64,000 nt of DNA from NCBI RefSeq assembly GCF_000785105.2, contig NZ_CP018906.1:744001-808000 (forward strand), given 5' to 3'. This DNA comes from Lentilactobacillus curieae. GTDB lineage: Bacteria > Bacillota > Bacilli > Lactobacillales > Lactobacillaceae. The translations under genes were made by a program, and so were the position numbers. Positions 5,986 to 62,780 of this stretch are shown here, piece after piece (the first letter of the stretch is position 1; each line of letters begins with the position of its first letter). Below the pieces are notes generated by a model. That model was not told the origin of the DNA. It searched no databases and worked only from the letters and a program-made list of their open reading frames with translations.

Positions 5986-6972
5986 CTAGCTAACAATATG
6001 AAGACTGCCATTACCATTTAAAATACTAATGGTATCGTCTAAGGCAATATCAACCATATTTTTAACAGCAACGTTTGTATAAAATCCAATGTGGGGACTA
6101 ACGTTCACATTTGGCATCTTCAACAATTTTTGGAGGTTTGCGTTTGGAACCTCACCATTAAGGTCCTTTCCAACCGTAGCGCTCTCACCTTCATAAGTAT
6201 CAATGGCGGCTCCAGCAATTTCATGATTTTCTAAAGCAGACACTAAATCTTCAGTTTTCACCACGGGACCTCTAGAAGCATTGATAAAGAACGCACTCGG
6301 CTTCATTTTTTTAAACACTTCAGTATCAATCATGTGGTGAGTTTCATCGGTCAATGGAGTATGCATAGTCACAATGTCCGCAGTTTTAAACACAGTATCG
6401 TGATCAACATAAGTCAGCGTATCGTTTAGTTCGGGACGCTTAATTGGGTCAGCTGCAATCACAGTGGCTCCTAAGGCTCTAAAAATCCGGGCAACCGCAC
6501 TCCCAATTTTTCCTGCTCCGATGATTCCGACTGTCATGTCATGAATCTCACCAGATTCAATTCCATCCCAACTGAAGTTCCCCTGACTTTCTCTGTCTGT
6601 CACAATCCCCATGTGGCGAACTAACCACATTGCATGAGCAAGAACTAGTTCACTAACCGAGCGGGGTGAATAAGCAGGTACATTCGTAACCACCAAGTCA
6701 TTCTTCCTAGCAGCATCCAAGTTTGCAATTTCGTAACCAGTAATTCGCAAACCTACTTGTTTGATTCCAAATGAATGCAGTTGTTCATAAACTTTTTCCG
6801 AACCTAAGGAGCCGTGTTGCTGAGTAATAATTCCATCGTAACCCTTAGCCAACTCGACCGTGTCATCACTAAGTGGTACGTGGTTTGTGGCAATCTCAAC
6901 GTTATGGCTTGCTTGGTAATTTGAAATATCCTGTTCTTCATCTGTTCTGACGTTGTACATCAAAATCTTCAT
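5986..6972 (-). CDS. D-2-hydroxyacid dehydrogenase (D-lactate dehydrogenase/VanH group)
   Basis: 328 residues. Reduces a 2-oxo acid to the D-2-hydroxy acid with NADH in the cytosol. The Rossmann motif VGIIGAGKIGSA begins near residue 148; the catalytic trio is visible as Arg in NASRGPVV, Glu in the TYEGE region and His in SPHIGFYT. The SVSELVLAHAMWL helix is typical of LdhA-type enzymes. It starts 15 bases after the aminotransferase with GGAGA upstream, so it most likely reduces the oxo acid made by that enzyme, for instance phenylpyruvate or 2-oxoisocaproate, although plain D-lactate dehydrogenase activity is also possible. Confidence 0.88.
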   Translation of the reverse strand: MKILMYNVRTDEEQDISNYQASHNVEIATNHVPLSDDTVELAKGYDGIITQQHGSLGSEKVYEQLHSFGIKQVGLRITGYEIANLDAARKNDLVVTNVPAYSPRSVSELVLAHAMWLVRHMGIVTDRESQGNFSWDGIESGEIHDMTVGIIGAGKIGSAVARIFRALGATVIAADPIKRPELNDTLTYVDHDTVFKTADIVTMHTPLTDETHHMIDTEVFKKMKPSAFFINASRGPVVKTEDLVSALENHEIAGAAIDTYEGESATVGKDLNGEVPNANLQKLLKMPNVNVSPHIGFYTNVAVKNMVDIALDDTISILNGNGSLHIVS

Positions 6973-6987
6973 TATGACTGGGTCTCC

Positions 6988-8160
6988 TTATTTGACTAAT
7001 GCGTATTCTTTAATTCGCTTAACGGCTTCCTTCAAATCAGTTTCACTGGCAGCGTAGCTGATTCGAACATATCCTTCACCACCTGGTCCAAATGAGGCGC
7101 CTGGAATTAGTGCAACTTTGGCGTTTTCTGCTAATTCGTAACAAAAATCAACGCTATTTTGGGTCATCCCTGCAGGAATCTTTGCGAAAATATAGAAAGC
7201 ACCTTTTGGATTAGGACACTCAAAACCCGCTTCAGATAATCCTTGAGTTACAATATCTCGCCGTTTTTCGTACTCGGCCTTCATAGGAGCAGCATCGTTC
7301 ATTCCGTTTTTAAATGCTTCTGCAGCAGCTCTTTGAGCGTTTGTGGTTTCCGATGTTACGGTAAATTCACTTACCTTTCCGATTTCAGAAATAATATCTG
7401 CCGGGCCACAAATAACTCCGATTCTCCAACCAGTCATGGCGTGGGACTTAGATACCCCATTAATAACTAATGTTTGTTCAGGTAAAATGGTTCCCATTGA
7501 AACGTGTTTCTTTTCGTAAGTTAATTCACTGTAAATTTCATCACTAATCAAAAAGATATCCTTACCGCGGAGAACATCAGCAATTTTTTCCAGATCATCG
7601 CGACCGTAAGTAACTCCAGTTGGGTTAGTTGGGTAATTTAAAATTACCGCCTTGACTGTATCCTTATTCTCCTCAATTGCTTCTGCCAACTTCTCAGGTG
7701 ACAAGATAAAACCATTATCTGATGTATCTACAAAAATTGGAGTTGCCCCATTTAATTGCGTGATTGGTATGTAGAACGGGAATATTGGGGTAGGAATAAT
7801 CACTGAATCGCCAGGATTTAAAATTGCAGTAAGTGATGAGTAAATTGAGCCTGTAGCTCCAGCTGTAATCAAAACCTCACTTTCGGCATCGTAATTTAAA
7901 TCGTATTTAGTGTTAAGGTAGTTAGCTGCGGCCTCGCGCAGCTCAATAATTCCGTGAGAGTTTGTGTAGTGACTATCATTATCCTCAATTGCGTCAATTG
8001 CAGCTTGCTTGATATGGTCTGGGGTATTAAAATCTGGCTCTCCTAAAGTTAGCTTGATAATCCCTTCAATGCCAGAAATCTTTTTATTGAACTCCAGAAT
8101 TGATGATGGCTTAAGTTGAGTCACCCGCTTATTCATTTTTGCTACTAATTCTTTACTCAT
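6988..8160 (-). CDS. Class I/II aminotransferase, probably aromatic amino acids
   Basis: 390 residues, PLP-dependent fold type I. Visible are the GEPDFNTPDHI substrate segment, YPTNPTG, DEIYSELTY, the PLP-lysine motif SKSHAMTGWRIG and the C-terminal arginine in YVRISYA. It belongs to the AraT/PatA branch. Start at 8160 (MSKELV) because AAGGGAG lies 9 bases upstream. An intrinsic terminator ends 16 bases before the start, and a leader peptide with Phe-Trp-Phe-Phe lies further up, so expression should rise when aromatic amino acids are short. With the adjoining D-hydroxyacid dehydrogenase it would turn an amino acid into a hydroxy acid, or work in the biosynthetic direction. Confidence 0.88.
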   Translation of the reverse strand: MSKELVAKMNKRVTQLKPSSILEFNKKISGIEGIIKLTLGEPDFNTPDHIKQAAIDAIEDNDSHYTNSHGIIELREAAANYLNTKYDLNYDAESEVLITAGATGSIYSSLTAILNPGDSVIIPTPIFPFYIPITQLNGATPIFVDTSDNGFILSPEKLAEAIEENKDTVKAVILNYPTNPTGVTYGRDDLEKIADVLRGKDIFLISDEIYSELTYEKKHVSMGTILPEQTLVINGVSKSHAMTGWRIGVICGPADIISEIGKVSEFTVTSETTNAQRAAAEAFKNGMNDAAPMKAEYEKRRDIVTQGLSEAGFECPNPKGAFYIFAKIPAGMTQNSVDFCYELAENAKVALIPGASFGPGGEGYVRISYAASETDLKEAVKRIKEYALVK

Positions 8161-8176
8161 ATCCATTTCTCCCTTC

Positions 8177-8253
8177 AAAAAAGCCCTAGCAATCATATTA
8201 GACTGCTAGGGCTTGCACTAGTTTCATCCCACGCAGTCAATGTCTGATCTGCG
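8177..8253 (-). promoter_or_regulatory. Attenuator of the aminotransferase operon (terminator plus alternative stems)
   Basis: On the minus strand the terminator is GCCCTAGCA/TGCTAGGGC (8204-8212 with 8183-8191, 9 bp) followed by six T (8177-8182). Its first arm can instead pair as CCCTAGCAGTC (8201-8211) with GACTGCGTGGG (8228-8238), 9 of 11 bases, forming an antiterminator. That second strand can itself pair with CGCAGATCA (8245-8253). The latter contains CAGATC, complementary to GATCTG, which is codons 21-22 of the leader peptide (8289-8294). These exclusive pairings are the layout of a trp-type attenuator. Confidence 0.72.
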
Positions 8254-8285
8254 CGGCCTTAATTCCATTACGAAATTCTTTTGGC

Positions 8286-8354
8286 TTACAGATCGTTTCT
8301 GAAAAACCAAAAGCATAAATAACTATTCAATTGAGTTTCACATTTTTTAGTCAT
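8286..8354 (-). CDS. Aromatic leader peptide (22 residues)
   Basis: Short frame with a good ribosome site (TAAGGAG, 9 bases before the ATG) ending at TAA 8286-8288. Residues 11-20 read SYLCFWFFRN: Tyr12, Phe15, Trp16, Phe17 and Phe18, five aromatic codons in seven. It stops about 30 bases before the attenuator stems and precedes an aromatic-type aminotransferase. A ribosome stalled on the aromatic run would leave codons 21-22 free to pair with the first stem strand and favour the antiterminator. The function as a sensing peptide is inference; the codon run, ribosome site and stems are seen. Confidence 0.75.
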   Translation of the reverse strand: MTKKCETQLNSYLCFWFFRNDL

Positions 8355-8385
8355 GATTAAAAACTCCTTAGAATAATTTAATCTA

Positions 8386-8413
8386 ATACTAGCACACTGA
8401 GAATAACAATCAA
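8386..8413 (-). promoter_or_regulatory. Candidate promoter of the aromatic leader
   Basis: Minus-strand TTGATT (8408-8413), 16-base spacer, TAGTAT (8386-8391), just after the hicD stop codon and 32 bases before the leader ATG. It fits but is not a strong match. Confidence 0.4.
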
Positions 8414-60991: not shown

Positions 60992-62389
60992 TTATTCTTT
61001 TTCTGATGAAGCAACACGTTGTCTTCCTAGAACTGGTCTTAAGAAGTGATACCCGAGCCCTAATACAGCACCAAGGACAGCAGGGACAACCCAATCCATC
61101 CCTAAACTTGCAAACGGCAATACGTGTTGTTGGAAACTAGTTAATGCTTGTCCAAATGCACTTTGGCTAACAACTGGTGGGAATGCTGCAACCATATCCA
61201 ATAATGCAGGAACAGTTGTGAAACCAACTACTAGTGCATAAACTACTGGATCACGGTCGAATAATGGAGATGTTACCGAAAGTAAGATCAAAACCATAGC
61301 AAATGGATATAAGAACATTAGCATTGGAGTAGACCAAGCAATGATTGTATCCAAGCCAAAGTTTGCAGTTAAGAATGAGGCGGCACACATCATTGCCAAC
61401 CATGCACGGTAACTAACCTTTGGAAAATGATGATGAAAGTCTTGTGCAAATGCAGCAACAAGGCCAACGGCTGTCGTTAAACAAGTCACCGTTAGCAATG
61501 TAGCCAATAGCGCGTGGCCAAAACCACCTAAGTAATAAGAAACTAATTGGTTAAAAGCAACTCCACCATCTGCGGATGGTTTAAAGTGTGCTAACGTGGT
61601 TGAACCTAACCAAACCAAAACAACGTAGATGGCGCCAATGGCAGCAGTAGCAAAAACTCCAGCCTTAGCAGTCACCTTTGCGTTAGAGCTTGGACGAGTT
61701 TTTCCAAGTTGCTTAACTGCAGTAACTACGGTAACCCCAAATGCTAATCCAGCTAACGCATCCATTGTGTTATATCCTTGTAAAAATCCGTTGAAGAAAG
61801 ATTGATGTTGATATGCAGAAGTGACAGCCTGTTGAGAAGCCTTTCCCATTGGGCTTAAGAACCCTAACAAAAATACACTAAATAATAGCACTAAAAAGAC
61901 TGGGTTAAGCACTTTCCCAACACTACTCATAACGTTTGATTCTCTAAATGAAACTAGGAAAGCAGCCCCGAAGAATAAAGCTGAAAATAAAAACAGTCCA
62001 ACCTGGGCAAATGATTGTGGTAGTAATGGTTGAACTCCAACACTGAAAGGTACTGTCGCTGTTCTTGGAGTCCCAAAGAGTGGTCCAATGGTTGCGTGAA
62101 TAAGAATCATAAACGTCAGTGCAAACACTGGCCCTAAGGGTTTTCCAATATCATAAACCCCTTCTGAACGCGTTACACTAACTGCAAGAACTGAAAGTAA
62201 TGGCAAAACAACTGCAGTTACCAAAAAACCAACTGTGGCACTCACCCAATGAGATCCAGCCAATTGGCCCAAATGAATTGGGAAAATTAAATTTCCGGCT
62301 CCAAAAAAGAGTCCAAATAACATCGAACTGACGACAAAATATTGTTTTTTAGTTAACGGCTTAGTATTTAAGTCCTGTAATTTTTCCAT
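60992..62389 (-). CDS. brnQ: Branched-chain amino acid:cation symporter (LIV-II)
   Basis: 465 residues, 12 helices. LFGLFFGAGNLIFPIHLGQLAG at the N-terminus, and later GYNTMDALAGLAFGVTVV, are family marks. Imports Leu, Ile and Val. Start at 62389 from AGGGG seven bases upstream. The isoleucine T-box upstream makes expression depend on uncharged tRNA-Ile. Confidence 0.92.
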   Translation of the reverse strand: MEKLQDLNTKPLTKKQYFVVSSMLFGLFFGAGNLIFPIHLGQLAGSHWVSATVGFLVTAVVLPLLSVLAVSVTRSEGVYDIGKPLGPVFALTFMILIHATIGPLFGTPRTATVPFSVGVQPLLPQSFAQVGLFLFSALFFGAAFLVSFRESNVMSSVGKVLNPVFLVLLFSVFLLGFLSPMGKASQQAVTSAYQHQSFFNGFLQGYNTMDALAGLAFGVTVVTAVKQLGKTRPSSNAKVTAKAGVFATAAIGAIYVVLVWLGSTTLAHFKPSADGGVAFNQLVSYYLGGFGHALLATLLTVTCLTTAVGLVAAFAQDFHHHFPKVSYRAWLAMMCAASFLTANFGLDTIIAWSTPMLMFLYPFAMVLILLSVTSPLFDRDPVVYALVVGFTTVPALLDMVAAFPPVVSQSAFGQALTSFQQHVLPFASLGMDWVVPAVLGAVLGLGYHFLRPVLGRQRVASSEKE

Positions 62390-62490
62390 TTCCATACCCC
62401 TTTTGAGAAAATAAAATACTTTTGATTGTGACTAATCTGACTAATATCAATCTGAGATTCCATTTACACCATCTCCTTTATTTTCGAAAC

Positions 62491-62780
62491 AAAAAAGCAC
62501 CCCTAGTCTAATAGACTAAGGGTGCTTCTACCTGCACGGTACCACCTTAATTCATGACACTATCACTAATGTCACCTCTCGCGTACGGCCACTATGGGCG
62601 ATACGCCAGCACTATAATGGGTGCCACCAATGCACGTTACTTTTGTTTTGGTGCATCGCTCGAAAGGGATATTCCCATAAATCAATTGTGCTTCCTCTCA
62701 CCTAACGAAGCTCGCTTCACAATTATCATTACGGTACTAAGCTTTCTCATCGCGTTTGCTAATAATTGTCACTTATCATA
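62491..62780 (-). promoter_or_regulatory. T-box riboswitch, tRNA-Ile
   Basis: Minus-strand T-box core AAGGTGGTACCGTG (62535-62548), terminator AGCACCCTTAGTCT-type arms (62513-62526 with 62496-62509) and a T run at 62491-62495. Stem I has AGTA opposite the loop GAATATCC; the codon one base before the closing CUUUC helix is ATC (62668-62670), Ile. The bulge TGGT fits discriminator A73. It fills most of the 507-base gap before the next gene; no other gene is seen there. Confidence 0.9.

Follow-up and report, generated by a model that had tools for sequence, protein, structure and literature searches.

The leader and the operon downstream

The analyzed window comprises 64,000 nucleotides of the Lentilactobacillus curieae contig NZ_CP018906.1, and all features of the region described here are encoded on its minus strand. 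A short frame of 22 codons (8286..8354) starts with the ATG at 8354, ends with the stop codon TAA at 8288-8286, and encodes MTKKCETQLNSYLCFWFFRNDL. It is preceded by a good Shine-Dalgarno motif, AAGGAG (8364..8369, read from the sequence). Both the frame and its ribosome-binding site had been pointed out in the initial annotation, and both were found to be kept in relatives. The Phe-Trp-Phe-Phe series and the Tyr mentioned there were located at codons 15-18 (8301..8312, from the sequence and the leader alignment) and at codon 12, respectively; the peptide also contains two Cys. By eye, a candidate promoter was recognized at 8386..8413, consisting of TTGATT (8413-8408), 16 nt, and TAGTAT (8391-8386). 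It matches the consensus at only 8 of 12 positions and was absent from the output of the promoter scan. A lactate dehydrogenase-like gene is located upstream and ends just some 60 nt short of the leader.

The gene following the leader encodes an aminotransferase (6988..8160), which has its ribosome-binding site directly after the leader terminator. The closest NCBIfam model, PRK07309.1, scored 562 bits, just under the cut-off of 576, and we take the gene to be araT-like. After 15 nt it is followed by a gene for a D-2-hydroxyacid dehydrogenase (5986..6972), and the two genes are adjacent in all 20 loci examined. The two enzymes presumably belong to the type that produces phenyllactate and indolelactate. 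A chorismate synthase was found in exactly the same 20 of the 24 genomes of the genus that contain the aminotransferase-leader unit and not in the other four; this fits a biosynthetic role, and the match may also reflect a single loss. No protein of the window genome exceeded the family cut-off for prephenate dehydratase, the sole candidate being a PDT-like protein of 191 aa with a weak score of 21 bits (cut-off 25.2). This candidate is preceded by a second leader of the same family in this genome (L201, G000:C1:942350-945350, leader 214-282, MIAAMTTQLNISNPEFWFFSEW).

Lactic acid bacteria are heavy users of T-boxes, and the window genome (2.10 Mb) has 36 T-box matches, 15 of them over the cut-off; one T-box precedes a paralogous aminotransferase. 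At the leader itself the absence of a T-box core, as initially annotated, was confirmed. The Rfam scan of the leader region revealed no family at the gathering cut-off, and when E values up to 5 were allowed, four sub-threshold matches were obtained between 8100 and 8460, none of which was a T-box. The Rfam covariance models of the Trp, Phe, Leu, His, and Thr leaders also had no match to the leader region. Despite the 36 T-box matches of the genome, the aminotransferase operon appears to use a leader peptide. Elsewhere in the window, a T-box leader (62515-62759, minus strand, 102.9 bits) precedes the frame 60992-62395, which appears to encode a carrier for branched-chain amino acids of the BrnQ type.

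Alternative structures of the leader RNA

Five RNA elements were distinguished. Element A (GAUCUGU, 8288..8294, from the pairing analysis) comprises codons 21-22 and the first base of the stop codon. Element B (CCGCGCAGAUCA, 8245..8256) is the partner of A or C, as seen from the alignment, duplex energies, and covariation. Element C (UGACUGCGUGGG, 8228..8239) is the partner of B or, forming the antiterminator, of D, based on alignment, masked folding, and covariation. The elements D (GCCCUAGCAGUC, 8201..8212) and E (GAUUGCUAGGGC, 8183..8194) are the 5' and 3' strands of the terminator (alignment, duplex energies), and a tail of six U follows (8177..8182, read from the sequence). The four pairings and the U6 terminator of the initial annotation all exist, and the ViennaRNA duplex energies for the window segments are -9.5 (A:B), -15.5 (B:C), -16.4 (C:D), and -23.0 kcal/mol (D:E). 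A further hairpin, P0 (8278..8313, from folding and covariation), had been overlooked. In P0 the aromatic codons CUUUUGGUUU (8313-8304) pair with AAGCCAAAAG (8287-8278) at -9.6 kcal/mol, and element A is in the loop. The RNA from 8165 to 8360 folds with a z value of -5.94 against dinucleotide shuffles, and none of 200 shuffles was as stable. A simple terminator scan did not report the leader terminator (D:E and U6).

From these features the leader is very probably a ribosome-mediated transcription attenuator that would answer a shortage of aromatic amino acids. In this model, the polymerase would make the leader RNA and a ribosome would translate the 22-codon frame. When tRNA charged with Phe or Trp (or Tyr) is scarce, the ribosome would halt at the aromatic codons and melt P0, A would be free to pair with B, C would be free to pair with D, D:E would not be formed, and the operon would be transcribed. 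When charged tRNA is plentiful, the ribosome would reach the stop codon and cover A, the formation of B:C would be followed by that of D:E, and transcription would end. In an untranslated leader P0 would tend to hide A, and termination would again be favored in most sequences. The model predicts that the operon is switched on under aromatic shortage, not under excess, and such a response is in keeping with a transamination step in making Phe and Tyr. Synthesis and translation of the RNA and the stalling of ribosomes on it are inferences, as are the sign of the response and the roles of the enzymes.

The switch was analyzed in silico by masked folding of 34 leaders. Each fold began at the 3' edge of the ribosome (assumed at +12 from the first base of the A site) and ended with D, the second strand of the terminator being absent; all values are equilibrium sums. 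When the A site held the Trp codon, C:D (the antiterminator) exceeded 0.5 in 33 of the 34 leaders. With the stop codon in the A site, B:C exceeded 0.5 in 26 leaders and C:D in eight, i.e., the antiterminator also wins at the stop in L014, L020-L025, and L071. Without a ribosome the respective numbers were 22 (B:C) and 11 (C:D). When the core of A was complemented, the antiterminator upon stalling at Trp was left in one of 34 leaders, and when B was complemented, the antiterminator was formed in 34/34 upon stalling and in 27/34 at the stop. The initially proposed logic, antitermination upon stalling and termination at the stop, was thereby reproduced. An automatic version of the stall/stop comparison was applied to 89 loci, the split into close and wider loci taking into account that no terminator was detected in L070; for some of the loci, e.g., L201, the terminator was wrongly picked. 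The value at the run minus that at the stop was above 0.3 in 23 of 33 close loci versus 26 of 330 shuffles, and the result was much weaker in the wider loci, with 18 of 56 versus 51 of 560 shuffles (genus g38: only 1 of 12). For L201 the calculation was redone by hand; the pairing of D was 0.69 with the ribosome on the run and dropped to 0.40 when it was at the stop.

Conservation in the genus and in close leaders

The aminotransferase is present as a close orthologue (E below 1e-60) in 20 of the 24 genomes of the genus, including one gene split over two frames (G009) and a partial one (G004), and in all 20 cases the covariance model detected the leader beside the gene. The closest named aminotransferase is that of L. 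kosonis, with 85% identity. A DNA pattern search revealed 40 places in 301 Lactobacillaceae genomes, 25 of which are leaders. The other 15 are chance occurrences without leader context (L042-L048, L060-L064, L066, L080, L081). The alignment of 34 leaders contains the window, L. kosonis, 18 members of the genus found via the aminotransferase, and 14 leaders from two further genera. The motif FWFF, with control codons that suit the product of the regulated pathway, is present in all 34, a conservation that is partly due to selection for the 14 leaders that came from the DNA pattern, which included part of the run; the other 20 are the window or were found through the aminotransferase. The longer version YYFWFF was seen in 26 of the 34 leaders, and the window has SYLCFWFF; judged from the codons, all three aromatic amino acids are therefore probably sensed. 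The stop codon UGA forms the first part of element A in 30 of the 34 leaders, which is not the case in the window.

RNAalifold detected P0, B:C, and D:E in the alignment, and 11 of the 34 consensus pairs had changes on both sides in one or more sequences, all of them in B:C and D:E. The covariation score of P0 and B:C was higher than those of all 500 shuffles and of all slid versions, while the number of pairs with two-sided changes in these two helices was not above the shuffles (365 of 500 were as high), and P0 itself had no two-sided change in the close set. For A:B and C:D together, 92.6% of the cells were paired, barely above the 92.3% of the shuffles (A:B 98.3%, C:D 88.0%); this test is weak in the close set because the helices are nearly invariant or loose. 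In 95 loci of the wider set, complementarity between the run and the downstream strand of P0 had a z value of 5.9 (30 distinct sequences) and that between A and B a z value of 9.6 (55 distinct), and in both cases none of 20,000 permutations of the partners was as high, with kinship only partly removed by keeping distinct sequences. The check on relatives that the initial annotation had named did not refute it: the frame, the aromatic codons, and the stems are kept in all 20 gene-bearing genomes of the genus and also in other genera, and both B:C and D:E show compensatory changes. The covariation anticipated for A:B appears over the wider set, this helix being near-invariant in close relatives.

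These results also bear on two other explanations. An ordinary terminator would be expected near the end of the lactate dehydrogenase-like gene, about 60 nt upstream, and a short frame could be there by chance. However, the sequence farther upstream differs among relatives, as seen by eye, while the leader stays conserved, the mutually exclusive helices covary, and the fold has the z value of -5.9, so that this explanation is extremely unlikely. It is very unlikely that the leader acts mainly on the translation of the aminotransferase or on RNA stability instead of transcription. The ribosome-binding site of the aminotransferase immediately after the terminator would be in accord with such a role, but the G+C-rich hairpin and the U run are kept in the 34 close sequences, and the leader is retained when other sequence lies between terminator and gene, as in L026, L027, L028, and L030. 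In these four members of the genus the extra distance between the terminator and the start of the aminotransferase is very roughly 120-500 nt.

A second structure that had been overlooked is a stem at the 5' end (8324..8375), in which UAUUC (8375-8371) pairs with GAAUA (8328-8324), and which encloses the ribosome-binding site and the start codon of the leader. The motif QLN before the aromatic run recurs in several Lactobacillales families. The codon after QLN has a fixed first base throughout the 34 close leaders while its residue is variable, which pointed to a constraint at the RNA level. In 60 leaders chosen by an LN-type motif, 49 of them distinct, the strand immediately preceding the Shine-Dalgarno motif pairs better with the LN-motif codons of its own leader than with those of others (mean 12.73 versus 11.19; 0 of 20,000 permutations). 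When each distinct core was represented by a single leader (n = 11), 4 of 20,000 permutations were as high. Examples are AUAUUUA/UAAAUAU, CUAAUAU/AUAUUAG, AUUCAGUU/AACUGAAU, and UUCAAAUG/CAUUUGAA. In an unrestricted search with 94 leaders the signal was weak (mean 12.3 versus 11.6 for swapped partners; 10 of the 94 leaders exceeded the 95th percentile of the shuffles). Our guess is that the stem is a gate on ribosome loading.

The conserved peptide could also be read as a nascent arrest peptide of the TnaC type, which together with a free aromatic amino acid would stall the ribosome at the stop codon, and induction would be by excess. The peptide is indeed well conserved and the stop codon is at the switch in 30 of the 34 leaders. 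Aminotransferase/hydroxyacid dehydrogenase pairs of this type make aromatic lactates in catabolic pathways, and induction by excess would suit a catabolic pair. In contrast, a ribosome arrested at the stop codon occludes A, and B:C leads to termination in 26 of 34 leaders, which is the wrong sign for induction. The conservation of QLN is better explained by RNA pairing, as indicated by the fixed first base of the next codon and the covariation of the stem, and the residues of the run vary (FSFAF, RFWRF, YYFGYF, Ser-rich, WW). Arrest at the stop codon is thus regarded as quite unlikely, albeit somewhat less so than an effect on translation or stability.

A wider family of leaders and its relation to known systems

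A covariance model built from 22 leaders matched 89 of 397 Lactobacillaceae genomes from 13 of 40 genera (E up to 0.01). In a sample of the order, 20 of 395 genomes were matched, seven of them outside the Lactobacillaceae, and six of these seven, from three further families, were convincing; one match of this search (L209) was due to chance. In a sample of the class (398 genomes), the model matched only the window's own genome, where absence is weak evidence, as in all searches over more than 40 genomes, since stricter filters were used.

In addition, 57 weaker or second-copy places were read by eye, while three strong places (in G108, G304, and G316) were left out. An aromatic run was found in 51 of them, two were Ser-rich (one with a TTG start), one had WW, and three (L177, L190, L191) contained no convincing leader. 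The downstream genes were assigned by their first residues in all cases, and by profile only where stated. They encode araT-like aminotransferases (36, none by profile), PTS_EIIC_2 permeases (10, three by profile), transketolase (three, one by profile), D-2-hydroxyacid dehydrogenase (two, both by profile), SerC (two, one by profile), TrpX (one, by profile), a weak PDT-like protein (one, by profile), and two others. Outside the Lactobacillaceae the targets are DAHP synthase (two, one by profile), shikimate dehydrogenase (two, one by profile), an aminotransferase, and a TrpX-like protein (L204). The latter is below the profile cut-off, and its leader has Phe and Tyr and no Trp. The run variants among the model matches include YYFRFF, FSFAF, RFWRF, YYFGYF, Ser-rich runs, and WW. 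In several relatives the control run tracks the target, i.e., WW precedes trpX, a Ser-rich run serC, and aromatic runs genes of the shikimate pathway.

The Ser-rich frames of L196 and L199 (MMQNINVNIISSSSRSTTAFV and, with a TTG start, NNLNNTQTVSFSWSTVTSV) are located together with terminators before phosphoserine aminotransferase genes and are possible serine attenuators. The Ser and WW leaders may be either homologous to the others or convergent. In genus g38 (L161, L162, L165, L169, L172-L176, L179, L180, L198), aromatic leaders of the type MSLPL...FYFWYFR with additional hairpins were observed.

The nearest plasmid-borne aminotransferase (69% identity) is that of Lactobacillus helveticus, encoded on the mobilizable plasmid pNWC_2_4 (30.5 kb, CP031020.1). 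On this plasmid a gene of 66 bp, whose product is annotated as a 21-aa hypothetical protein (AZA20889.1, L210 859-924), has the sequence MTNKLTQSEQSFYFWFFRHDL, precedes the aminotransferase and a D-2-hydroxyacid dehydrogenase, and is matched by the covariance model with 44.2 bits. The presence of leader and operon on a mobilizable plasmid indicates that the unit can move.

A joint reading of these observations, to which we would give slightly less than an even chance, is that a homologous attenuator family exists in four Lactobacillales families. It would have been reused before genes for the aminotransferase, the PDT-like protein, DAHP synthase, shikimate dehydrogenase, transketolase, TrpX, PTS_EIIC_2 permeases, and D-2-hydroxyacid dehydrogenase, have been retuned by swaps of the control codons (aromatic, Trp, perhaps Ser), and travel on a plasmid. 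The 5' stem would be a second layer: a stalled ribosome would hold the stem open and loading would go on, and a passing ribosome would let the stem close, so that mainly one pioneer ribosome would report per transcript.

The attenuators of the trp, pheA, and his/leu operons of E. coli have a short frame, control codons, mutually exclusive helices, and an intrinsic terminator, and stalling leads to readthrough. The window leader shares the first four features and the predicted stall logic. The chain A:B, B:C, C:D, D:E exceeds the three helices of the E. coli trp leader, and its logic is nearer to that of the his leader. The leaders of the family differ from the E. coli examples in that the stop codon is usually inside A and that a 5' stem encloses the ribosome-binding site. 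T-box riboswitches (RF00230) do the same job, but by direct binding of tRNA. The switch is one member of a family and of a classical kind with some features of its own. What makes it interesting is this family and its reuse rather than any new principle. Its members, which differ in their control codons, form a natural set for testing how switches arise and are retargeted.

Aromatic regulation in low-GC Gram-positive bacteria was reportedly treated by Panina et al. in 2003. In the open-access literature, without most subscription papers, no report was found of lactic acid bacteria with an aromatic leader upstream of this aminotransferase gene or of the leader family, and an earlier mention may exist. 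The statement of the initial annotation that it knew of no such leader was to this extent not contradicted, but leader peptides in Firmicutes have already been published. The ilv-leu operon of S. aureus has a Leu-rich attenuator peptide (PMC5794164); this is likewise leader-peptide attenuation in Bacilli, compared here by description only, for another amino acid and other genes. That paper also refers to predictions of branched-chain leaders in Lactococcus lactis and Streptococcus, which means that attenuation of this type had already been proposed for Lactobacillales. His leader peptides replace T-boxes in Firmicutes, as in the present case, but they respond to histidine and occur in bacilli and other groups (PMC2965389, PMC9413887), and the his genes of Lactobacillales are reported to have T-boxes, not leaders (PMC9413887). 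The uORFC-13-1 motif before aroF of Acholeplasma is described in PMC8632094 as a putative Phe leader that is next to a terminator and upstream of DAHP synthase; it is confined to Acholeplasma and environmental sequences and resembles the present leader by description only. TrpX of Streptococcus suis is reported to be under T-box control (PMC9382623), and the word araT is absent from the main text of a T-box survey (PMC2494555).

Two further observations were made at the places read by eye. In L190, from base 227 of the reverse complement, the frame MILIIIIIII is located without a clear ribosome-binding site before a terminator and a 2-keto-4-pentenoate hydratase-like gene; it may be an Ile leader or a chance occurrence. 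In L148, L153, L154, L166, and similar loci, PTS_EIIC_2 permeases are found under aromatic leaders, which hints that some of these permeases may carry aromatic compounds in these bacteria.
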